From the NCBI RefSeq assembly GCF_027111275.1, contig NZ_CP114286.1, positions 2,914,001-2,978,000 on the forward strand: a stretch of DNA of 64,000 nucleotides, in the 5' to 3' direction. Shown in pieces: positions 17,371-35,744 of this stretch (its first letter is position 1; each line of letters starts with the position of its first letter). This DNA comes from Flavobacterium luteolum. Its GTDB lineage: Bacteria; Bacteroidota; Bacteroidia; Flavobacteriales; Flavobacteriaceae. The notes below the pieces were generated by a model, which worked only from the letters and a program-made list of their open reading frames with translations, searched no databases and had not been told where the DNA came from. The position numbers were made by a program, and so were the translations under genes.

Positions 17371-17705
17371 AGAATCTCAGAATCTCAGAATCTCAGAATC
17401 TCAGAATCTCAGAATCTCAGAATCTCAGAATCTCAGAATCTCAGAATCTCAGAATCTCAGAATCTCAGAATCTCAGAATCTCAGAATCTCAGAATCTCAG
17501 AATCTCAGAATCTCAGAATCTCAGAATCTCAGAATCTCAGAATCTCAGAATCTCAGAATCTCAGAATCTCAGAATCTCAGAATCTCAGAATCTCAGAATC
17601 TCAGAATCTCAGAATCTCAGAATCTCAGAATCTCAGAATCTCAGAATCTCAGAATCTCAGAATCTCAGAATCTCAGAATCTCAGAATCTCAGAATCTCAG
17701 AATCT
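17371..17705. repeat. 8-bp tandem repeat AGAATCTC, about 42 uninterrupted copies
   Basis: The unit AGAATCTC is repeated perfectly from 17371 to 17705 (335 bases, 41.9 copies). Because 8 is not a multiple of 3, every plus frame reads the same eight-residue unit RISESQNL without a stop, while minus frames hit TGA. It lies between the tRNA terminator and the YegP-like gene, 38 bases before that gene's ATG. Perfect identity of all copies points to recent slippage expansion; I treat it as non-coding. Confidence 0.95.
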
Positions 17706-25800: not shown

Positions 25801-26664
25801 ATGAAACGATATCCGATTTATAGTGTTCAGAATTTTAGCTGTAACGATATTCACCGTGATTTTTATGTCAATACTTTTACAGAACATTTAAAGAATCACA
25901 GTTTTGTCGAAGAACCGCATCGTCATGACTCGTATTTAATGGTTTTTTTTACAAAAGGTTCAGGATTGCATGAAGTTGATTTTGACCAGTTCGAAATCAA
26001 AAGAGGAAGCCTTTTTGTGCTACAGCCTGGACAAATGCATCATTGGAATTTATCTAAAGACGTTCAAGGTTTTGTAATTATCTTTTCACAGGAATTGTAC
26101 AATCTGTATTTCGGACAGAAAAAAATCAACGACTATAATTTTTATCATTCCATTCATAATCGACCGGAAATGGTTTTTGAAGAAAATGAAATCCCCAAAA
26201 TCCTTCCATATTTCGATTTGCTGATTCAGGAGAACAGTCAAAATGTTAAATATCAATTAGATAAATTACTGAACTTGTTAGATTGTATTCATATTGAAGT
26301 TGCTCGAAAATACAATGAAACTTATTCACATCAAGCGCATTCCTACAATATCAAAATCAATGCATTTGAATCCATTTTAGAAGAATACTTCAGAACCCAA
26401 AAGTTGCCATCGTTTTATGCAGATAAGCTAAATATAACGTTGAAACATTTAAACAGAATCTGCAATGAAATACTTCAAAAAACTGCTACAGACGTAATCA
26501 CTGACAGAGTAATTCTGGAAATAAAAAGAATGTTGATCGATAAACAATTAGCAGTAAATGAAGTTGCCTTTAAAGTAGGCTACGAAGATTATTCCTATTT
26601 CTCTCGTTTCTTCAAAAAACAAACTGGAATGTCTCCGACTGAATTTAGAAACACGGTGCGATGA
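25801..26664 (+). CDS. AraC family transcriptional regulator
   Basis: 287 residues from ATG 25801 (MKRYPIYSV); the open frame to 25723 has no family features. N-terminal cupin-like sensing domain (VEEPHRHDSYLMVFFTKGSG, then LFVLQPGQMHHW) and C-terminal AraC DNA-binding domain with two helix-turn-helix units (LPSFYADKLNITLKHLNRICNEILQKT and VNEVAFKVGYEDYSYFSRFFKKQTGMSPTEFR). The effector is unknown. It is divergent from DUF983 and convergent with yceI across a large hairpin repeat. Confidence 0.92.
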   Translation: MKRYPIYSVQNFSCNDIHRDFYVNTFTEHLKNHSFVEEPHRHDSYLMVFFTKGSGLHEVDFDQFEIKRGSLFVLQPGQMHHWNLSKDVQGFVIIFSQELYNLYFGQKKINDYNFYHSIHNRPEMVFEENEIPKILPYFDLLIQENSQNVKYQLDKLLNLLDCIHIEVARKYNETYSHQAHSYNIKINAFESILEEYFRTQKLPSFYADKLNITLKHLNRICNEILQKTATDVITDRVILEIKRMLIDKQLAVNEVAFKVGYEDYSYFSRFFKKQTGMSPTEFRNTVR

Positions 26665-26856: not shown

Positions 26857-27390
26857 TTAGGCTTGTTTTACAAATTGTAATTCAATGTTTAAACGTACTT
26901 CTTCGCCTACCAAAACACCACCTGTTTCAAGAGCTGAGTTCCAGTTTAAACCCCAATCTTTACGATTAATTTTTCCTTCTATGCTTAAACCTACTTTTGT
27001 ATTTCCCCAAGGATCAGTCATGATTCCGCTAAATTCAACTGGGAATTTTACTGTTTTAGAAACACCTTTAATATCTAAATCTCCAGTTAATTCGAATTCA
27101 CCATCATTAATTTTTTTGAAAGCAGAAGATTTGAAAGTTAATTTTGGATGATTTTCAGCATCAAAGAAATCACCGCTTCTTAAATGTCCATCACGATCTG
27201 CATTTGCAGTGTCTACTGAAGCAATATCAGCAGAAAAACTGAAATCTGCATTATCAAAACTTTCGCCTTCTGTGATTGCAGAAGCTTCATAAGTTCCAAA
27301 TTTTCCTGAAACATTTGTAAACATCATGTGTTTAACTTTAAAACCAATTTCTGAGTGAGTTGGGTCAATTGACCATTTTGTAGTTGCCAT
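26857..27390 (-). CDS. YceI family protein
   Basis: 177 residues from ATG 27390. It has the YceI lipocalin-like pattern: WSIDPTHSEIGFKVKHMMFTNVSGKFG at the N-terminus, then DFSFSADIASVDTANADRDGHLRSGDFFDAENHPKLTF, and KDWGLNWNSALETGGVLVGEEV at the end. Family members bind polyisoprenoid or amphiphilic ligands. No signal peptide is visible, so it is probably cytoplasmic here, unlike E. coli YceI. Upstream sequence to 27441 is in frame but holds the leader. It shares a palindromic operator with the pirin gene, pointing to joint control. Confidence 0.92.
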   Translation of the reverse strand: MATTKWSIDPTHSEIGFKVKHMMFTNVSGKFGTYEASAITEGESFDNADFSFSADIASVDTANADRDGHLRSGDFFDAENHPKLTFKSSAFKKINDGEFELTGDLDIKGVSKTVKFPVEFSGIMTDPWGNTKVGLSIEGKINRKDWGLNWNSALETGGVLVGEEVRLNIELQFVKQA

Positions 27391-27438: not shown

Positions 27439-27484
27439 CAAAGTTACGGAGACAGTTGTCCTAGAGCACTTAATCTAGATTAAG
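27439..27484 (-). promoter_or_regulatory. yceI promoter with palindromic operator CTTAATCTAGATTAAG
   Basis: A perfect 16-bp palindrome at 27469-27484 (core of GCACTTAATCTAGATTAAG) lies exactly 22 bases upstream of the -7 element TAACTTTG (27446-27439, minus strand). No -33 TTG is visible, so the operator seems to replace it. The same arrangement precedes the pirin gene. Confidence 0.8.
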
Positions 27485-27511
27485 AAATAAAAAAGGTGAT
27501 GTGTTTTTGTC

Positions 27512-27680
27512 GCAGATTGCACGGAGTAAAAAAACGTGTTGCCACGAATTTCTCTAATTACCACGAAATAAATTGAATCAAAATTTGTGGAAATTCGAGC
27601 AATTGCTACGCCTATTCGCTATCGCTCGAGTCGTGGCGAAAAAATCAATTTAATCCTTCTAATCTGTGGCAAAAAAACTG
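27512..27680. repeat. Degenerate copy of the GCCACGAATT/GCCACAGATT repeat
   Basis: The segment has GCCACGAATTTCTCTAATTACCACGAA on the left, and TCGTGGCG then AATCTGTGGC on the right, with a GC-richer insert GCTACGCCTATTCGCTATCG (27606-27625) in the middle. It lies between the yceI operator and the Fe-S gene. Probably a decayed or composite member of the same family. Confidence 0.65.
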
Positions 27681-27690
27681 TGCGAAAAGC

Positions 27691-27921
27691 TTAACTTTTA
27701 TTATTCATGTAAAAGCTTAACGCTCCGGAAGGACACTTATTAACTGTCGAAATTATTTTCTCAGTTGTAGATTTTTCTGGAGTAATCCAAGGTTTTTCTT
27801 TTGGACGAAAGACATCCGGATTGTTTTTGACACAATTTGTCGAATGAATACATTTTCCAGATTGCCATACAATCGTAACTTCTCCGTTTGTATATTCTTT
27901 AATTAGGTTATTTGGATTCAT
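27691..27921 (-). CDS. (4Fe-4S) mono-cluster-type protein (YjdI/Fer4_19-like)
   Basis: 76 residues. The pattern SGKCIHSTNCVKNNPDVFRP...KPWITPEK...NKCPSGALSFY matches the divergent mono-cluster ferredoxin family represented by E. coli YjdI. Only three cysteines are present (C24, C30, C63); His26 is a candidate fourth ligand (inference). Small cytoplasmic redox or sensor protein of unknown partner. It lies between yceI and pirin on the same strand, each with its own control region, so the three genes are a neighbourhood rather than a proven operon. Confidence 0.85.
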   Translation of the reverse strand: MNPNNLIKEYTNGEVTIVWQSGKCIHSTNCVKNNPDVFRPKEKPWITPEKSTTEKIISTVNKCPSGALSFYMNNKS

Positions 27922-28015
27922 GGTTTAAAATTTTAAGGATGAATTTAATTTTAAAGTCAGACCAATTTTCTTATTTATAAAGTTAGTCTTTCTTTTTTAA
28001 AATTGAACAAAAAAA

Positions 28016-28055
28016 GAAACGATAATGGTCTGATTTACAGATTTGTTATCGTTTC
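28016..28055 (-). terminator. Terminator of the pirin gene
   Basis: Stem GAAACGATAA (28016-28025) with TTATCGTTTC (28046-28055), loop 20 bases, followed on the minus strand by a run of T's. It lies 32 bases after the pirin stop. Confidence 0.75.
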
Positions 28056-28086
28056 AAAGTACAGATATTAATTGTTTTTTTTTGAA

Positions 28087-28803
28087 TTAATAATTCATCG
28101 GAATGTCCATTAATAAAAATTCAGCGTCTGTATTGGCTTTAATATTCAACGTATCAGTTCCTGAAATTCCAACTGCATCGCGAGTATTTAATTCCTGACC
28201 GTTGATGGTTACATTTCCTTTCAAAACGAAAGCATAAACTCCGTTTCCTTCTTTTTTGATTTTATATTCGGTTGCAGTTCCTGCATCAAAATTCCCCATG
28301 TTGAACCAAGCGTCTTGGTGAATCCAAACTCCTTCATCATCAGCATTTGGAGATAAAACTTGTGCTAATTTATTATGTCTGTCAGCAACATTTAAAGTAA
28401 TTTGCTGGTAACGTGGAGTAACGTTTCTTTTGTTTGGAAACAACCAAATCTGCAATAATTTAGTCTGCTGATCTGCATTTGGGTTAAACTCACTATGCTG
28501 AATTCCAGTTCCAGCACTCATTACCTGAATGTCACCATTTTTGATTACTTCAGTATTTCCCATGCTGTCTTTGTGAGCCAAATCACCTTCTAGCGGAATT
28601 GTAATAATTTCCATATTATCATGAGGGTGAGTTCCAAATCCCATTCCAGCAGCAATCGTATCGTCATTCAAAACACGAAGTGCTCCAAACTGAATTCTAT
28701 CTGGATTGTACCAGCTCGCAAAACTAAAACTATGATAAGCGTTTAACCATCCGTGATTTGCATTTCCTCTTGTGTCTGCTTTGTGCAATACTATATTTTC
28801 CAT
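28087..28803 (-). CDS. Pirin family protein
   Basis: 238 residues from ATG 28803 (MENIVLHKADTRGNANHGW). Bicupin with the metal-binding N-terminal set GFGTHPHDNMEIITIPLEGDLAH and later IQHSEFN, as in pirin and YhaK/YhhW quercetinase-like proteins. Substrate is unknown; the family includes quercetin 2,3-dioxygenases and redox-sensitive regulators. The frame stays open to 28863 but the promoter lies inside that stretch. It shares the yceI palindrome and spacing, so both are likely induced by the same signal. Confidence 0.92.
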   Translation of the reverse strand: MENIVLHKADTRGNANHGWLNAYHSFSFASWYNPDRIQFGALRVLNDDTIAAGMGFGTHPHDNMEIITIPLEGDLAHKDSMGNTEVIKNGDIQVMSAGTGIQHSEFNPNADQQTKLLQIWLFPNKRNVTPRYQQITLNVADRHNKLAQVLSPNADDEGVWIHQDAWFNMGNFDAGTATEYKIKKEGNGVYAFVLKGNVTINGQELNTRDAVGISGTDTLNIKANTDAEFLLMDIPMNY

Positions 28804-28832
28804 GATTTTGTCTTTTATTGATTTTGATAGTA

Positions 28833-28878
28833 CAAAGATACAGCCGATGTAAAGGAAAAGCACTTAACCTAGATTAAG
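28833..28878 (-). promoter_or_regulatory. Pirin promoter with palindromic operator CTTAACCTAGATTAAG
   Basis: The palindrome (28863-28878, one mismatch to perfect symmetry) is exactly 22 bases upstream of TATCTTTG (28840-28833, minus strand). The flank GCACTTAA is also shared with the yceI site. See the yceI operator. Confidence 0.8.
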
Positions 28879-28976
28879 TTCTTTGAGGTGCTAAGTTTTG
28901 GAGGTTCTGAGGAACTAAGATTTTAGGAACAAAGGTGTAGAGGTTCAAAGGTTTTGCCTTAAAGTAACCACACGGT

Positions 28977-29027
28977 TTGTCATTTCGACGAAGGAGAAAT
29001 CTTCGCAAGTAACTCTACAAAGATTTG
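28977..29027. repeat. Dispersed repeat, GTCATTTCGACGAAGGAGAAATCT type
   Basis: The segment TTTGTCATTTCGACGAAGGAGAAATCTTCGCAAG resembles 29468-29516 (opposite orientation) and both arms of 37101-37202. No gene is seen within it. Confidence 0.75.
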
Positions 29028-29034
29028 GTATAGA

Positions 29035-29445
29035 TTATTCTTGTAAATTTCCATCAGCATATTTATAAAACTCTAAATCCAAGAGTTCTAATTTGGCATT
29101 TATTTTTTCATTGTTAAGTTCTTCAACTTCCTGATTTCGTAGTTTTTTAACCAAATCTTCATTAGATAATTTTTTCGGATTAATTAAATTAATTGCCGAG
29201 TCAAGAATTTTCGCGGTTTTAAACTTTTTGTTTTTCTTCAATGCTTTTAATGTCTCGAAACAATTTTGTCCGCTAGAATTGAAAAAGTATTGATTAAATC
29301 CTCCGTTATTTATTTCCATTTCTAATTCTTCAATATTCGCTACAGGCTTTGAAATATTGGTTTTCTCTTTATCTGATGCAACTTGGCTTAAACAACTTGA
29401 AAATGTCATTAGTAATAAGGATAAAAAGAAGTTGAATAATTTCAT
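29035..29445 (-). CDS. DMP19/DUF4375-like lipoprotein
   Basis: 136 residues. A lipoprotein signal ends MTFSSC (Cys18). The segment EMEINNGGFNQYFFNSSGQNCFETLKALK matches the DUF4375 (DMP19-like) family signature, in which one known member mimics DNA; whether that applies to an exported protein is doubtful. Function is unknown. It lies downstream of the 119-residue gene on the same strand, separated by a 127-base stretch with a dispersed repeat. Confidence 0.7.
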   Translation of the reverse strand: MKLFNFFLSLLLMTFSSCLSQVASDKEKTNISKPVANIEELEMEINNGGFNQYFFNSSGQNCFETLKALKKNKKFKTAKILDSAINLINPKKLSNEDLVKKLRNQEVEELNNEKINAKLELLDLEFYKYADGNLQE

Positions 29446-29467
29446 TGTTTTTCGTTGTAAATTTTAC

Positions 29468-29516
29468 TTTGTTGAGATGCTCGCGGAGATCTCTCCTTCG
29501 TCGAGATGACAAGATT
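29468..29516. repeat. Dispersed repeat, reverse copy of the GTCATTTCGACGAAGGAG type
   Basis: GAGATCTCTCCTTCGTCGAGATGACAAGATT is the reverse complement type of the 28977-29027 copy. It is followed by CTTTGCGCCTTCGCGTCTTCGCGAGATT (29532-29559), a member of the CGCAAAG repeat family. Confidence 0.7.
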
Positions 29517-29572
29517 GTGTTAAAAAATAATCTTTGCGCCTTCGCGTCTTCGCGAGATTATTAAAAGCTTTA

Positions 29573-29932
29573 TTACTTAATCCGAACCAATTTTCCTTTC
29601 CCAATCACTTCATCAAGATAATTAGCGGAAGAACTTTTCTTGTCATGCATAAAAAAAGGAATAGTATCTTTTTCGATTTGATCTTTTGAAATACTTATAA
29701 CTAAATCCGTATTAATGAAATTATCCAATACTATTTTGTTGCCATAAGAAACTTTTCCTTTTGGCAGATATTTGTTATCGAAGGCAAAAATGCTGTCCTT
29801 AAAAGTAATTTTATCTTTTTGGATATAAGTATTGTCCTCTTCAATCAAGTAATTGTAACGGCCAATAAGTTTGTCTGTTTTCTGAGTAAAACTAATTAAA
29901 AACAGTGTCGTTATTAAGGCAAAATATTTCAT
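29573..29932 (-). CDS. Exported hypothetical protein, 119 residues
   Basis: Signal peptide at residues 1-17. The mature chain is rich in short beta-like stretches (KLIGRYNYLIEEDNTYIQ, KIVLDNFINTDLVISISKDQI) and resembles small periplasmic or lipid-binding hypothetical proteins, but I do not recognise a family. It begins 6 bases after the stop of the ScfR-type regulator and is therefore probably cotranscribed with it. Confidence 0.6.
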   Translation of the reverse strand: MKYFALITTLFLISFTQKTDKLIGRYNYLIEEDNTYIQKDKITFKDSIFAFDNKYLPKGKVSYGNKIVLDNFINTDLVISISKDQIEKDTIPFFMHDKKSSSANYLDEVIGKGKLVRIK

Positions 29933-29938
29933 GGCATT

Positions 29939-31420
29939 CTAACTATATTGATTCATAAATTGCTGTACAACAGCATCGGTATTCTCATGGCGTTTTTTTC
30001 TTTCTAAAACAATTGGCGGAGCTGCTCTTTCTAGACAATCCTGAACAGCACAGGTTTCGCAAGTTACACCAACAATTCGTTTCACCAAAGGTTTTCCGTC
30101 AATGACCTTGAATTTCTTTTTCATTGTTGGATTAATCAAAATTCCAACAGAAATACTTCGAATAAAATTCTCGGCAAAAGGATCTTTTGTAGCCGAAGAA
30201 AAAACCAAATATTCATTTCCACTATTCGCATAGCTCGAAATCTGGGCATCAAAAAAATGAGATTTATTTTGTTTGATTGCTTCATCAATCGTTTTTACCG
30301 AAACCCATCTTCTGCAATAATGTTCGTTGGTTTCGTTGGCGTGCGGTTCTTGCTGATGTGTAATATGTAATTCTTTATTTATCTGATAAAAGTCGGAGCC
30401 TATTTTGTGTGATAATCTTAAGAAGAAAAGGTTTTTCAACTGAAAATCTTTCGGTAATAAATTCGTTAATCGCTGATAAAATGATTCTGGCGAGACTTCA
30501 AAACTTTCTATTAAAGAAACAAATTCTTCTGGTTTCGGATTTTCATTTTCCAAAAAAGAATTGATTTTATCTACAACTAATTTTCTTGGCAATAATAAAG
30601 CGCCAGCAAAGTAAGAAGCGTAAAAATTATTTAAAACCTGGTCGAAATTTTCAAACTTAATCCAGCTGAATGTTAGCAAACGGTCAGAAATCTTCATGTA
30701 ATTATAGGCAATTTCTTTAGCTAAAATAAACGCTTTCTGCGGAGCATCAAGTTCTGTTGAAAGCAATAAAGTTTTGCTTTTCGGAACATAAATCGAACGC
30801 AAATCGTCTAAAGCTTCCTGATCTGCGAATGCAATTTCCTTTATGTTGTATTCGTATTCTTCTTTCAGAATCGCTTCTGATTCTTCAACAGTAATTTTAG
30901 AATCCAGATTAATCTGAAACGACTTCGAAAACGCAATTACCTTCTCTTCTAAATCTTCAAAATAATTGCTGTGCGCTTCCTGATATGAACGTAAAGCTGC
31001 TAAAAAGAAACTTTCACGGCTTAAATTATAATGCTGTGCAATTTCGATAATCGTACTAATAAAAGCATTGACTTTTGCCGGAGCATTGGCAATAATATCA
31101 ATTAAATCGGCTTCTTGAATGCCAAAAAGCTCTAATGGAATCTCTTTTAAAATTCCAGATTTTAAAATTTCGCCAATAGGAGCGAGGTTATTATCGAGTT
31201 TTAAAGACACCATTTGGTCATAAGTCACGTCCAAATGTTCGCAGAGCAATAAAATTTTATCTGTTTTTGGATATTTTTTTCCCTTTTCAATCTCGTTTAA
31301 ATACGATTTTGAAAGATTTGTCAATTTAGCCAAGCCAAAAAGAGACAGATTTTTTTGCGTTCTGACTTGCTTCAATTTTAATCCGAAGATCAGTTTTATA
31401 TAGTCTTTTTCGATATCCAT
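29939..31420 (-). CDS. ScfR/RamB-type transcriptional regulator (XRE HTH plus degenerate IrrE-like domain)
   Basis: 493 residues. N-terminal XRE helix-turn-helix (residues 12-66: GLKLKQVRTQKNLSLFGLAK). The middle has an ImmA/IrrE-like segment without an intact HExxH (FILAKEIAYNYM). The C-terminal DUF2083-type domain has a Cys cluster VTCETCAVQDCLERAAPP. In Corynebacterium, RamB of this family controls aceA and aceB in response to acetate-derived metabolites. Here it is divergent from aceB, with a palindrome between them, so control of the glyoxylate shunt is a strong inference. Start is 5 bases from its -7 element. Confidence 0.85.
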   Translation of the reverse strand: MDIEKDYIKLIFGLKLKQVRTQKNLSLFGLAKLTNLSKSYLNEIEKGKKYPKTDKILLLCEHLDVTYDQMVSLKLDNNLAPIGEILKSGILKEIPLELFGIQEADLIDIIANAPAKVNAFISTIIEIAQHYNLSRESFFLAALRSYQEAHSNYFEDLEEKVIAFSKSFQINLDSKITVEESEAILKEEYEYNIKEIAFADQEALDDLRSIYVPKSKTLLLSTELDAPQKAFILAKEIAYNYMKISDRLLTFSWIKFENFDQVLNNFYASYFAGALLLPRKLVVDKINSFLENENPKPEEFVSLIESFEVSPESFYQRLTNLLPKDFQLKNLFFLRLSHKIGSDFYQINKELHITHQQEPHANETNEHYCRRWVSVKTIDEAIKQNKSHFFDAQISSYANSGNEYLVFSSATKDPFAENFIRSISVGILINPTMKKKFKVIDGKPLVKRIVGVTCETCAVQDCLERAAPPIVLERKKRHENTDAVVQQFMNQYS

Positions 31421-31424
31421 GAAC

Positions 31425-31455
31425 CAAATATAGGTATTCTAAAAATAAACGCCAA
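31425..31455 (-). promoter_or_regulatory. Promoter of the ScfR-type regulator (near-leaderless)
   Basis: Minus strand TTG (31455-31453), 20-base spacer, TATATTTG (31432-31425). Only 4 bases separate the -7 element from the ATG (31420), so the transcript would have almost no 5' leader. Confidence 0.7.
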
Positions 31456-31474
31456 AAAATTATTTTTCATTTTT

Positions 31475-31488
31475 AGCGAACGTTCGCT
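31475..31488. promoter_or_regulatory. Palindromic operator AGCGAACGTTCGCT between scfR and aceB
   Basis: Perfect 14-bp palindrome. Its 3' end touches the aceB -33 TTG (31488-31490), and it lies about 20 bases upstream of the scfR -33. It is GC-richer than its surroundings. It is the obvious binding site for the adjacent regulator. Confidence 0.75.
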
Positions 31489-31518
31489 TGTTTTGTAAAA
31501 AACTTTTTTCTAATATTG
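31488..31518 (+). promoter_or_regulatory. Promoter of aceB
   Basis: TTG (31488-31490), 20-base spacer, TAATATTG (31511-31518), one mismatch to TAnnTTTG. The operator overlaps the -33 by one base. Confidence 0.6.
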
Positions 31519-31616
31519 TGGTGTAGAAAATATTAATTATCAGTTTGTTATGTATTTGTGTTTTGAAAAACATATAAACGATTCAATTGCTGGTAATGAA
31601 ATTAAAAACCACAGCT

Positions 31617-33218
31617 ATGAAAAACCAATTAGAAATTACCGAAACGGCAATGGAATTTTTAGCCGAAAAGAAGCTTCGTTATCCAAAGATCTGGACAGAA
31701 GAAGCAATTGTTTTTATAACTGAATTGCATAGAAAATTCGAATCACAGCGAAAACTATTGCTTTTACAGCGTGAACAGAAACAAGTCACTTTTGATCAGG
31801 GGATTATGCCGGTTTTTATTCCGGAAACCAAAAGCATCAGAGAAGGTAATTGGAAAGCTGGAGAAATTCCGAAAGATTTACTGGATCGAAGAGTAGAAAT
31901 TACTGGACCAGTTGATCGCAAAATGATCATCAATGCTTTGAATTCAGGAGCGAAAACATTTATGGCCGATTTTGAAGATAGCACTTCGCCAACTTGGCAA
32001 AACCTGATGGACGGTCAAGTAAATTTAATCGATGCGGTAAACAAAACAATTACGTATACTGATTTGGTGAAACAGAAATCATATCATTTAAATGAAAAAA
32101 TCGCAACGCTAATTGTACGTCCGAGAGGTTTGCATTTGCCAGAAAAACATGTTTTAGTTGAAGGAAATGAAGTTTCGGGGTCTTTGATAGATTTTGGATT
32201 GTATGTTTTTCATAATCATAAACGACTTTTAGAAAACAATTCTGGGCCGTATTTCTACATTCCGAAATTGGAACATTATCTCGAAGCGCGTTGGTGGAAT
32301 AACGCAATCGATTTTACGGAGGATTATTTGAAACTGAACAAAGGAACAATAAAAGTGACAGTTTTAATTGAAACCATAACGGCAAGTTTTCAGCTAGATG
32401 AAATTATTTACGAATTGAAAGAGCATATCGTTGGTTTGAATTGCGGACGCTGGGATTATATTTTCTCATACATTAAAAAGTTTAGAAAAAATCCAAAATT
32501 CATTGTTCCAGATCGTGATCAGGTAACTATGACTTCGCCTTTTATGAATGCCTATTCAAATCTGGTAATTCAAAGATGTCATAAAAGAGGGATTCATGCG
32601 ATTGGCGGAATGGCAGCACAGATTCCGATTCGAAATAATGAAGAAGCCAATGCTGTCGCTTTCGCGAAAGTAAAAACGGATAAAGAACGTGAAGTTCGAA
32701 ATGGTCATGATGGAACTTGGGTTGCGCATCCAGATTTAGTTTCGCTGGCTAAAGAAATTTTTGATAAAGGAATGCCAACTCCAAATCAGATTCACATTAA
32801 AAGGGAACATCGAAAAATTACAGAAGCTGATTTGATTGAACCGCCAATTGGACTGATAACCGAAAACGGTGTTCGAAAAAATATCAATGTTGGAGTTCTA
32901 TATCTGGCTTCATGGCTAAATGGACAAGGCGCAGCTGCATTGCATAATTTGATGGAAGATGCTGCAACGGCAGAAATTTCGAGATCACAATTGTGGCAAT
33001 GGCTTCAGAATAAAGTGATTTTGGATAATGGACGAAAATTAGATTTGGCTTATTATCATGAATTGGCTTTAGATGAATTCAGAAAAATCAAGGAAGAACT
33101 AGGAGAAGAAAATTATGAAAAACAACAATTTCCATTAGCAGAAAAAATGCTGGAAAGATTAGTAGTAAACCTGCACTTTGTGGATTTCTTGACGATACCG
33201 TGTTACAAATATCTATAA
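31617..33218 (+). CDS. aceB: Malate synthase A
   Basis: 533 residues from ATG 31617, the same length as E. coli AceB; an in-frame ATG at 31596 would add seven residues. Condenses glyoxylate with acetyl-CoA to malate. Signatures: EITGPVDRKMIINALNSGAKTFMADFED, then the catalytic block KVTVLIETITASFQLDEIIY and GLNCGRWDYIFSYIKKF, and a C-terminal NVGVLYLASWLNGQGAAALHN. It is followed by aceA after a 157-base hairpin-containing gap, making the glyoxylate shunt pair. Confidence 0.96.
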   Translation: MKNQLEITETAMEFLAEKKLRYPKIWTEEAIVFITELHRKFESQRKLLLLQREQKQVTFDQGIMPVFIPETKSIREGNWKAGEIPKDLLDRRVEITGPVDRKMIINALNSGAKTFMADFEDSTSPTWQNLMDGQVNLIDAVNKTITYTDLVKQKSYHLNEKIATLIVRPRGLHLPEKHVLVEGNEVSGSLIDFGLYVFHNHKRLLENNSGPYFYIPKLEHYLEARWWNNAIDFTEDYLKLNKGTIKVTVLIETITASFQLDEIIYELKEHIVGLNCGRWDYIFSYIKKFRKNPKFIVPDRDQVTMTSPFMNAYSNLVIQRCHKRGIHAIGGMAAQIPIRNNEEANAVAFAKVKTDKEREVRNGHDGTWVAHPDLVSLAKEIFDKGMPTPNQIHIKREHRKITEADLIEPPIGLITENGVRKNINVGVLYLASWLNGQGAAALHNLMEDAATAEISRSQLWQWLQNKVILDNGRKLDLAYYHELALDEFRKIKEELGEENYEKQQFPLAEKMLERLVVNLHFVDFLTIPCYKYL

Positions 33219-33225
33219 ACTTTTA

Positions 33226-33286
33226 AAATCTGCTCAATCTGCCAGATCTGCGAGCGAATAAGTTTTTCTCGCAGATTTAGCAGATA
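33226..33286. repeat. Hairpin in the aceB-aceA gap, AATCTGC type
   Basis: Stem ATCTGCGAG (33246-33254) with CTCGCAGAT (33268-33276), extended by ATCTGCT (33228-33234) with AGCAGAT (33279-33285). No T-run follows, so it is unlikely to be a strong terminator; it may stabilise or divide the aceBA message, or be another dispersed repeat. Confidence 0.7.
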
Positions 33287-33375
33287 AAATGAGAGAAAAG
33301 ATCAGTCTGGTTAAACTGAACACTTAAAACTGTGACTGAACACTAAAAAACGAACCACTTTAACTAAACTATATT

Positions 33376-34656
33376 ATGAAAACAACAGAAGACAGAATTC
33401 AGGAATTGATTAACGATTGGATTACGAACCCGAGATGGAAAGGAGTTGAGCGTCCTTATACTGCGAGTGAAGTAGTAACACTTCAGGGGTCTTATAAAAT
33501 TGAGCATTCTATTGCCAAAATGGGTGCAGAGAAATTATGGAGAAAGTTAAAAAGTCAGGATTATGTTGCGGGTTTGGGAGCGTTAACTGGAAATCAGGCG
33601 ATTCAGGAAGTTGATGCGGGTTTAGAAGCAATTTACTTAAGCGGATGGCAGGTTGCTGCTGATGCAAACCTGGCGGGAGAAATGTATCCTGACCAATCGC
33701 TTTATCCAGTAAACAGCGTTCCGATGGTGGTAAAAAAGATCAATAACGCTTTATTGCGAGCTGATCAGATTCAGACTGTAAATAATATTGAAGATAGAAA
33801 AGATTATTTAGTTCCAATTGTGGCTGATGCAGAAGCTGGTTTTGGTGGAAACCTAAATGCTTTCGAATTAATGAAATCCATGATTGAAGCCGGAGCTTCT
33901 GGAGTGCATTTTGAAGACCAATTGAGTTCTGCTAAAAAGTGCGGACATCTGGGCGGAAAAGTTCTGGTGCCAACTCAGGAAGCTATTAACAAGCTAATTG
34001 CAGCACGTCTGGCTTCAGATGTTATGGGCGTTTCAACTTTGATTGTTGCGAGAACAGATGCAGAAGCAGCAAATTTATTAACGAGCGACGCAGACCCAAG
34101 AGACAGGAAATTTTTAACCGGAGAAAAAACGGCAGAAGGTTTCTTCTATGTAAAAAACGGAATCGAGCAAGGAATTGCAAGAGGCTTGAGCTACGCACCT
34201 TACGCCGATTTAATCTGGATGGAAACCAGTAATCCGGATTTGGAATTTGCGAGAAAGTTTGCAACAGCAATGAAAAAAGAATTTCCAGACAAAATGCTGG
34301 CTTACAATTGTTCGCCTTCTTTTAACTGGGCAGCAAAATTAACGGTTGCTGAAATGGAAACATTTAGAGAAGATTTGGCTGCAATGGGTTATAAATTCCA
34401 GTTTATTACTTTGGCAGGATTCCATGCTTTGAACACTAGTATGTTTGAATTGTCAAGAGCGTATAAAGAACGCGGAATGGCTGGATATTCTGAACTTCAG
34501 GAACGTGAATTCGCATTACAAAAAAACGGATTCAGAGCTGTAAAACATCAAGCTTTTGTAGGGACTTCTTATTTTGATGCCGTTCAAAATACGGTAATGT
34601 TAGGAAAATCAGCAATAACCGCAATGGAACATTCTACAGAGGTTGAGCAATTTTAA
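33376..34656 (+). CDS. aceA: Isocitrate lyase
   Basis: 426 residues, bacterial short form. Cleaves isocitrate to succinate and glyoxylate for growth on acetate or fatty acids. Catalytic Cys189 in the [12 protein letters not shown] signature, upstream [10 protein letters not shown] (150-158), and [12 protein letters not shown] later. It is downstream of aceB and both are probably controlled by the divergent ScfR-type regulator. A terminator follows 9 bases after the stop. Confidence 0.97.
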
Positions 34657-34665
34657 TTCAAAAGA

Positions 34666-34692
34666 AAAGCCAGTTCAATGAACTGGCTTTTT
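34666..34692 (+). terminator. Terminator after aceA
   Basis: Stem AAAAGCCAGTT (34666-34676) with AACTGGCTTTT (34681-34691) and further T's. It abuts the inverted repeat downstream. Confidence 0.85.
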
Positions 34693-34693
34693 T

Positions 34694-34848
34694 ATAGCCA
34701 CAGATTGCACAGATTAAAGGGATTTTTTTTCGCCACGAATTACACAAATTTTCACGAATTTCATTTCAATTTAATTTGTGAAAATTTGTGTAATTCGTGG
34801 CAACATTTTTTTAATCCTTTTAATCTGTGAAATCTGTGGCTAAACCTT
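34694..34848. repeat. Nested inverted repeat, GCCACAGATT/GCCACGAATT type
   Basis: Outer arms TAGCCACAGATT (34695-34706) with AATCTGTGGCTA (34831-34842); inner perfect 24-bp stem (34732-34755 with 34778-34801) of the GCCACGAATTACAC type. It fills the gap between convergent aceA and the Crp-like gene. Same family as 26665-26794, with the order of inner and outer motifs swapped. Confidence 0.9.
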
Positions 34849-35424
34849 TTATTTCTTCAAAAGCCTAGCTTTCATTTTGCTGAAGAATTCGGGTGTTACA
34901 CCAATGAAAGAAGCGATTTGTTTTTGAGGAACTTTGTGAACCAATGTTCCATATTTCTTAGTGAATTTGTCGAAACGTTCTTCTGCAGGTAAACTCAAAT
35001 TATCCATTAATCGCTGTTGATTCGCAACTAAAGAGTTTTCAATTAAAATCCTGAAAAAGCGTTCCAGTTTTGGAATTTCAAGATACAATTGTTCCTGATT
35101 TTCTTTAGATAAAGAAACAACTTCAGCTTCTTCTAAAACTTCTATGAAAAGCTGTCCGGGTTTCTGCGAAAAATAACTGTACATGTCACTCATCCACCAG
35201 CCTTCGCAGGCAAAAGAAAGTACGTGTTCTACAATATTATCGTTGATGTTGAAACTTCTTAAAATACCTGAATTTACGAAATAGGAATGTTTGCAGACTT
35301 CGCCAGCATTTAATAAAACAGTTTTGGCTTTATAAGTTTTGGTTTCTAGTTTGGATAAAAAAAGTGCCTGTTCTTCTGGTGTCAGAGAAACGTGTTTGGC
35401 AATATTTTCGAGAATTAATGCCAT
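34849..35424 (-). CDS. Crp/Fnr family transcriptional regulator
   Basis: 191 residues. N-terminal cyclic-nucleotide-like domain (KTVLLNAGEVCKHSYFVNSGILRSF) and a C-terminal winged helix-turn-helix (VPQKQIASFIGVTPEFFSKMKARLLKK). This short type, common in Bacteroidota, lacks the usual phosphate-binding RxAS motif, so cAMP is not the obvious effector. It overlaps the upstream DUF6370 gene by one base, and with purT forms an apparent operon. Confidence 0.9.
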   Translation of the reverse strand: MALILENIAKHVSLTPEEQALFLSKLETKTYKAKTVLLNAGEVCKHSYFVNSGILRSFNINDNIVEHVLSFACEGWWMSDMYSYFSQKPGQLFIEVLEEAEVVSLSKENQEQLYLEIPKLERFFRILIENSLVANQQRLMDNLSLPAEERFDKFTKKYGTLVHKVPQKQIASFIGVTPEFFSKMKARLLKK

Positions 35425-35744
35425 TATTTTTTATCGTCGATTAAAGTAAATGAAGTCGCTTTGAATCTGTCTCCTTTAATTTCTCCTGTAACTAAAGCTT
35501 TGCTTATTGCATTACAAAACCCTTTTTCAGCGTGAGCGTCTCCATGATCATGAATTGTCGTTCCGTCAACGAAATAAGATTTTCCATCAATACGAACTGC
35601 TAAATCACAGCTTTTGCCTTTCATTCCGAATTGACATTCTCCGCATGAAGCCTCAACAACTGTTGGTTTGTTAAATTTCTTCTTGTCCTGTGCCTGCATT
35701 ACGATTCCAATAAAAAGGAAAGTCGCTAATAATATATTTTTCAT
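35424..35744 (-). CDS. DUF6370 family exported protein
   Basis: 106 residues with a signal peptide (1-18, ending MQAQ). Conserved core EASCGECQFGMKGKSCDLAVRIDGKSYFVDG followed by HDHGDAHAEKGFCNAI: four Cys and several His could bind metal. Family role is unknown. It starts 2 bases after purT and overlaps the crp-like gene by one base, so it is translated from the same message. Confidence 0.8.
   Translation of the reverse strand: MKNILLATFLFIGIVMQAQDKKKFNKPTVVEASCGECQFGMKGKSCDLAVRIDGKSYFVDGTTIHDHGDAHAEKGFCNAISKALVTGEIKGDRFKATSFTLIDDKK

Follow-up and report, generated by a model that had tools for sequence, protein, structure and literature searches.

A candidate Crp/Fnr-type regulator and its putative operator-promoter element at the pirin and yceI genes of Flavobacterium

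Introduction

In the stretch of Flavobacterium DNA analyzed here (the window; 64,000 nucleotides, C1:2914001-2978000 of a 5.36-Mb single-contig genome), two genes read from the minus strand, one for a YceI protein and one for a pirin, are each preceded by a 16-bp palindrome, which raises the question of which protein binds there and whether it turns these genes on or off. To our knowledge, few cNMP-binding proteins of Bacteroidetes have an assigned operator, and we found no prior description of a Crp/Fnr-type regulon of pirin and YceI in the open-licence literature. We consider it likely that both palindromes are operators of one small regulon, and that the Crp/Fnr-type protein encoded at 34849-35424 binds them as a dimer, most likely acting as a class II activator. 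The case supplies a candidate regulator, its operator, the position of that operator relative to the Bacteroidetes sigma-A promoter, targets across much of the genus and one candidate specificity residue; in addition, a switch shared by pirin and YceI makes the roles of these two proteins testable.

Results

The operator-promoter element in the window and the genome

The putative target yceI (26857-27390, minus strand; PF04264, 177 aa) is preceded by GCACTTAATCTAGATTAAG, which holds a perfect 16-bp dyad, CTTAATCTAGATTAAG, at 27469-27484 (minus strand), while the putative target pirin (28087-28803, minus strand; PF02678 and PF17954, 238 aa) is preceded by GCACTTAACCTAGATTAAG, with the dyad at 28863-28878 (minus strand) reading CTTAATCTAGGTTAAG on the gene strand and matching in 7 of 8 dyad pairs. 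In the direction of the genes, each dyad is followed after exactly 22 nt by a promoter -7 element of the form TAnnTTTG, namely TAACTTTG for yceI (27439-27446, minus strand) and TATCTTTG for pirin (28833-28840, minus strand). A preliminary description of this DNA had reported the 22-base gap and leaders that are otherwise unalike, and both observations hold, the 22-nt spacers of the two promoters being different; its claim of an identical palindrome stands insofar as both sites are present, but a single base distinguishes them and perfect symmetry is confined to the yceI copy. A gene for a Fer4_19 4Fe-4S mono-cluster protein (76 aa; 27691-27921, minus strand) lies 3' of pirin, with which it probably shares a transcript, and recurs in 12 of 21 neighbourhoods compared (20 fetched because they hold sites, plus the window). 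Elsewhere in the window, positions 17371-17705 consist of 41.9 tandem copies of the 8-base unit AGAATCTC (100% matches), and this array lies within an open frame of ISESQNLR repeats.

Scanning the window for the dyad with up to three mismatches gave an unremarkable 5 matches vs. a shuffled mean of 2.04, with 9 of 100 shuffles reaching 5. In the whole genome, there were 6 dyads with at most one mismatch vs. 0.38 expected from the dinucleotide make-up of the window (P of at least 6 = 3e-6), and all 6 had TAnnTTTG at 22 nt on one strand, the probability of this element at one given spacing on either side being 0.0017 per site. The genes that follow these 6 elements encode YceI (PF04264), the pirin described above (PF02678/PF17954), a further pirin (PF02678/PF05726), a member of the glyoxalase superfamily, an alpha/beta hydrolase and a protein of 104 aa that matched no Pfam family. 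With two mismatches allowed, the dyad alone showed no enrichment in the genome (11 places vs. 27 for a reversed control pattern), and the 5 extra places were not counted as sites because none had TAnnTTTG at 21-22 nt; at this level, then, the signal resides in the composite element and not in the dyad on its own. The same lack of enrichment speaks for the matching sites being a chance or mobile repeat devoid of any regulatory role, a reading to which we give practically no credence and which we ruled out on the fixed 22-nt spacing, the conservation over much of the genus, the loss of the element together with the regulator and the 6 dyads found vs. 0.38. The motif, built from sites chosen by their likeness to the dyad, is TTT-CTTAATCTA-(G/C)(G/A)-TTAAG-TGC and is asymmetric towards the promoter, with dyad positions 7-9 (CTA) nearly fixed and the proximal half mostly carrying GG, GA or CA. 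At another locus (L008), positions 1501-1516 hold a dyad with two mismatches that lacks TAnnTTTG at 22 nt; it lies between the gene of a Crp/Fnr paralog (39% identity) and a divergently oriented gene for 146 aa.

Conservation across the genus and the family

A scan of this genome and of relatives had been proposed in the preliminary description, and it bore out the expectation of a dyad-TAnnTTTG unit enriched before genes at a fixed spacing, as found in 6 of 6 genomic sites and, according to a complete per-genome table, in 263 of 398 Flavobacterium genomes (at most two mismatches, 22 nt fixed); a reversed control pattern matched about 40 of the 398, one match each as counted by eye. When the dyad had to be exact and the spacer could vary between 8 and 36 nt, matches appeared in 40 of 150 relatives, all of them within the genus, and among the matches listed all but three were at 22 nt, those three being at 21, 21 and 9 nt; the 59 genomes of other genera in this search had no element. 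In a family scan at up to one mismatch, comprising 199 genomes from 198 genera, the element occurred only in the two Flavobacterium genomes, with none in the 197 other genera represented by one genome each. Around the regulator gene, 80 named loci held 145 dyads at 22 nt vs. one each at 18, 21, 34 and 38 nt, and every one of the 80 had at least one dyad. The gene after the dyad was pirin for 76 of these 145 dyads, yceI for 62 and unassigned for 7 (for 6 of the 7, no ORF was called within 400 nt), with further targets in relatives encoding hydrolase, glyoxalase and second-pirin proteins. Pirin and yceI appear to form the regulon core in relatives, and the small regulon containing both genes that had been suggested earlier is supported by the gene set of this genome as well as by the genes downstream in relatives.

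Link between the regulator and the operator

Two proteins encoded in the window had been put forward as candidate binders, an AraC-type protein (25801-26664) and a Crp/Fnr-type protein of 191 aa (34849-35424, minus strand), the gene of the latter being abutted by one for a 106-aa DUF6370 protein (35424-35744, minus strand; in 12 of 21 neighbourhoods). A Crp/Fnr ortholog is present in 19 of the 21 neighbourhoods, and in 15 of them it immediately precedes the pirin operator in the same orientation, whereas the AraC-type gene is present in only 4 of 21; this strongly favours the Crp/Fnr-type protein and led us to rule out the AraC-type one. The AraC-type gene does adjoin yceI in the window, but AraC proteins usually bind direct repeats, and we deem its role as the regulator highly improbable. 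The operator binder is very probably the Crp/Fnr-type protein. In the window, five genes separate the pirin operator from the regulator gene (two for short unknown proteins, one XRE-type, one malate synthase-like and one isocitrate lyase-like, the last two labels resting on resemblance), with a gap of about 6 kb (28879-34848). Among 78 genomes tallied by hand, the distance between regulator and pirin is at most 0.4 kb in 39 and at most 13 kb in 35, the two genes being on different contigs in 4.

In 121 genomes of the genus, the element (at most two mismatches, at 22 nt) was found in 71 of 78 with a regulator ortholog (at least 54% identity) and in 0 of 43 without one (p = 8e-26 from hand-typed counts, descent not corrected for). 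Seven regulator-positive genomes did not have the strict element (G022, G027, G034, G046, G056, G072 and G166); all but G046 carry a degenerate or 21-nt version before pirin, and G046, with pirin on another contig, falls outside judgement. A pirin match (E <= 1e-60) was obtained in 116 of the 121 genomes, and the 5 without one are all regulator-less, so that 38 of the 43 regulator-less genomes keep pirin, some with only about 50% identity. We also compared the pirin promoters of 44 chosen genomes, calling an operator from the best 16-mer in 250 nt with at least 13 of 16 bases matching and a gap of 21 or 22 nt to a following TAnnTTTG or TAnnTTTA: all 33 regulator-positive genomes had the operator, vs. 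none of 11 regulator-negative genomes, these being the ones with the most similar pirins (69-76% identity) among the 43. On the pirin tree of the 44 genomes, regulator presence needs at least 6 changes, and well-supported branches force 4 of these; the 4 independent pairs with good support agree throughout, with p at 0.125, these being too few for a sign test to fall below 0.05.

The genome holds 23 cNMP-binding proteins, and one of the 22 others might be the true binder, with the gene at 34849 tied to pirin by descent only. Genomes G190, G388 and G435 lend this some substance: no ortholog of the window regulator was found in them, and its position, directly before a similar operator, CTTAATCTAGGTCAAT, and a pirin-yceI pair, is taken by a regulator with no more than 34-36% identity. 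Since these three genomes keep the element without the ortholog, ortholog and operator are not strictly tied, and their regulator looks like one that was displaced or that strongly diverged while the position of the operator was kept. We nevertheless regard another binder as quite unlikely, for operator and ortholog are lost together while pirin is kept, and the covariation of residue 183 (see below) points to the 34849 protein. In the loci of these three genomes (L275, L277 and L276, respectively), a 98-aa protein encoded upstream resembles, by eye, the 104-aa target of the window genome, with which it shares HxGGGSGLL.

Crp relatives with 41-46% identity in other families (7 loci, L236-L242) had no pirin or operator within about 3.5 kb, and the same was true of L243, a Crp relative within the genus; one of these eight loci gave a weak YceI match. 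The best named records for the regulator protein are from Flavobacterium species, the top one at 99% identity, with records of this genome itself maybe excluded. Among regulator-less genomes, the pirin promoters of L198, L199 and L201 (and nearly that of L197) share CATTTTGTAnTTG just before TAAATTTG, possibly a replacement form of the promoter.

Fold of the regulator and its candidate recognition residue

The regulator carries an N-terminal domain of the cyclic-nucleotide-binding type (PF00027, beta roll; 33.5 bits vs. a cut-off of 27.5), and its AlphaFold2 model (mean pLDDT 91.5) displays a long dimer helix at 119-144, with further helices within 147-190 that would form the C-terminal helix-turn-helix; none of the Pfam Crp HTH models reached E 1e-3 against this protein. 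The top Foldseek match is 3dn7 from Cytophaga hutchinsonii, whose title (cyclic nucleotide binding regulatory protein) gives no operator or function and which is also the nearest protein of solved structure in sequence terms (E 3.8e-45, profile positions 3-188), followed by FNR and Crp-type proteins, with TMq of 0.86-0.87 to full-length A. fischeri FNR and M. tuberculosis CRP. At the place of the cAMP site, inspection by eye found D80 where Glu is expected, and the Arg-Ser pair replaced by G90 followed mostly by Q or N at position 91; as for a cysteine cluster of the FNR kind, the 191-aa protein has only C44 and C73. C73 is retained by 116 of the 125 distinct orthologs, but none of the 10 related paralogs has it.

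To relate the protein to its presumed operator, we assembled 121 distinct combinations of regulator and pirin operator from all loci at hand, a set heavy in close relatives and different from the 121 genomes above. Every combination has an operator, with a spacer of 22 nt in 115 and of 21 nt in 6. Residue 183 in the recognition helix, which aligns with R213 of FNR and R185 of CRP, is lysine in 115 combinations, all with the proximal half-site TTAA, and arginine in 4, all with TCAA; two combinations could not be read at this residue, and both have TTAA. Three of the R183 cases arose in fetches made for purposes other than TCAA, while in G304 R183 was predicted from the TCAA operator and then found; because the operator of G304 equals that of G059, these two genomes may be close kin. 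The covariation spans at most about three lineages of change. A search for TCAA sites matched 35 of 398 genomes, with most matches resembling, by eye, coding-sequence repeats, and the genomes used from it were G034, G059, G294, G304, G181, G190, G388 and G435. Exceptions came from this set: 1) an ortholog with K183 in G181, where CTTAATCTAGGTCAAG (a TCAA site) precedes a GNAT/FMN-reductase-like operon; 2) G190, G388 and G435, in which the regulator of 34-36% identity has K at this residue alongside the CTTAATCTAGGTCAAT operator before pirin and yceI. In addition, E179, aligned with a Glu of FNR that reads the G of TTGAT, is retained although the operator has A at that place, which counts against the proposed reading. 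On balance, residue 183 appears to tune operator specificity.

Discussion

Activator or repressor

A study of F. psychrophilum places the sigma-A box TAnnTTTG at -12 to -5 (PMC9723704). With the box at this position, the dyad would extend from -50 to -35 and be centred at -42.5 (-41.5 with the 21-nt spacer), in agreement with the centre near -43 given in the preliminary description. As in class II promoters, the dyad overlaps the upstream box of the promoter and its spacing is fixed, and TTG-N17-23-TAnnTTTG is found in only 1 of 63 non-redundant operator promoters vs. 26 of 107 other putative promoters; this scarcity is weak evidence because TTG also occurs at a shifted place in 15 of the 107 controls and because the fixed dyad itself excludes some TTG. 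Taken together, the fixed spacer, the absence of a TTG -33 box and a protein of the Crp/Fnr type favour class II activation, and the sequence data suggest this mode at these promoters.

The question leans towards an activator, with its sign derived from a position where a repressor could also sit. If the same Crp/Fnr-type protein bound the dyad and repressed, it would block polymerase at -33 until a signal releases it, and the overlap of the dyad with the -33 region is compatible with such exclusion. A repressor would tolerate other positions, yet the spacer is confined to 22 or 21 nt in the 121 combinations; the near absence of the TTG box also argues, if weakly, against repression, as does the situation in regulator-less genomes, which do not have the operator and of which 5 of 11 keep a TAnnTTTG box near pirin. 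We therefore view repression as unlikely. In our preferred reading of activation, a dimer of the 34849-35424 protein would bind TTAAT-CTAG-(A/G)TTAA via its C-terminal helix-turn-helix, the dyad at about -50 to -35 would take the place of the TTG -33 box, and, at the TAnnTTTG promoter, the bound dimer would most likely make contact with sigma-A RNA polymerase in the manner of a class II activator. The predicted regulon in this genome would comprise yceI, both pirins, the glyoxalase-fold protein, the alpha/beta hydrolase and the 104-aa protein.

Relation to known regulators

An operator with the shape of Crp/Fnr-type sites (5-bp half-sites and a short centre), found here together with linkage and covariation, is consistent with putative binding by this protein, but we did not file it as CRP, FNR or CprK because it departs from a defining feature of each. 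The operator of CRP is TGTGA-N6-TCACA, and cAMP is bound by the Arg-Ser pair R82/S83. The regulator resembles E. coli CRP at class II promoters in its PF00027 match, its fold and a dyad near -41.5, but its operator is not TGTGA-N6-TCACA and it has no counterpart of the Arg-Ser pair near G90-Q91. The FNR box is TTGAT-N4-ATCAA, and likeness to FNR extends to the dyad geometry, the full-length fold (TMq 0.86) and the four R183 orthologs with a TCAA proximal half; in contrast to FNR, the window protein has no N-terminal cysteine cluster, and the half-site usual for it carries A where FNR sites carry G.

The dehalobox of CprK/RdhK in Desulfitobacterium is TTAAT-N4-ATTAA, with the dyad at -41.5 (PMC3638464, PMC7062800). 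CprK/RdhK is an activator of the Crp/Fnr type, and TTAATCTAGATTAA at yceI matches the dehalobox exactly, with one change in the pirin site; the dyad is at -41.5 there vs. about -42.5 here (-41.5 with the 21-nt spacer), our value being derived from the box. In contrast, the promoter here is TAnnTTTG, CTA is nearly fixed, and GG, GA or CA prevails in the proximal half. CprK/RdhK controls reductive dehalogenase genes in response to organohalides, whereas the targets identified here are pirin, yceI, glyoxalase-fold, hydrolase and Pfam-less proteins, with no dehalogenase among them.

The putative signal

Iron was considered as the signal and set aside, as iron-limitation tables from other genera gave one pirin and one YceI entry (PMC10434189, PMC5429918), too thin to use. 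In relatives, the neighbours of the pirin operon include genes for OsmC (9 of 21 neighbourhoods), FMN-reductase (10 of 21) and GNAT (13 of 21) proteins, and these neighbours, along with C73, suggest a redox or electrophile signal. We speculate, with considerable doubt, that the regulator is a thiol-based redox or electrophile (quinone) sensor with a Crp/Fnr fold. In this view, Cys73, next to the former nucleotide pocket, would serve to turn on a detoxification programme comprising pirin, YceI and glyoxalase-fold enzymes, accompanied by OsmC and FMN-reductase neighbours in relatives, and the dehalobox-like operator would have arisen independently of that of CprK.
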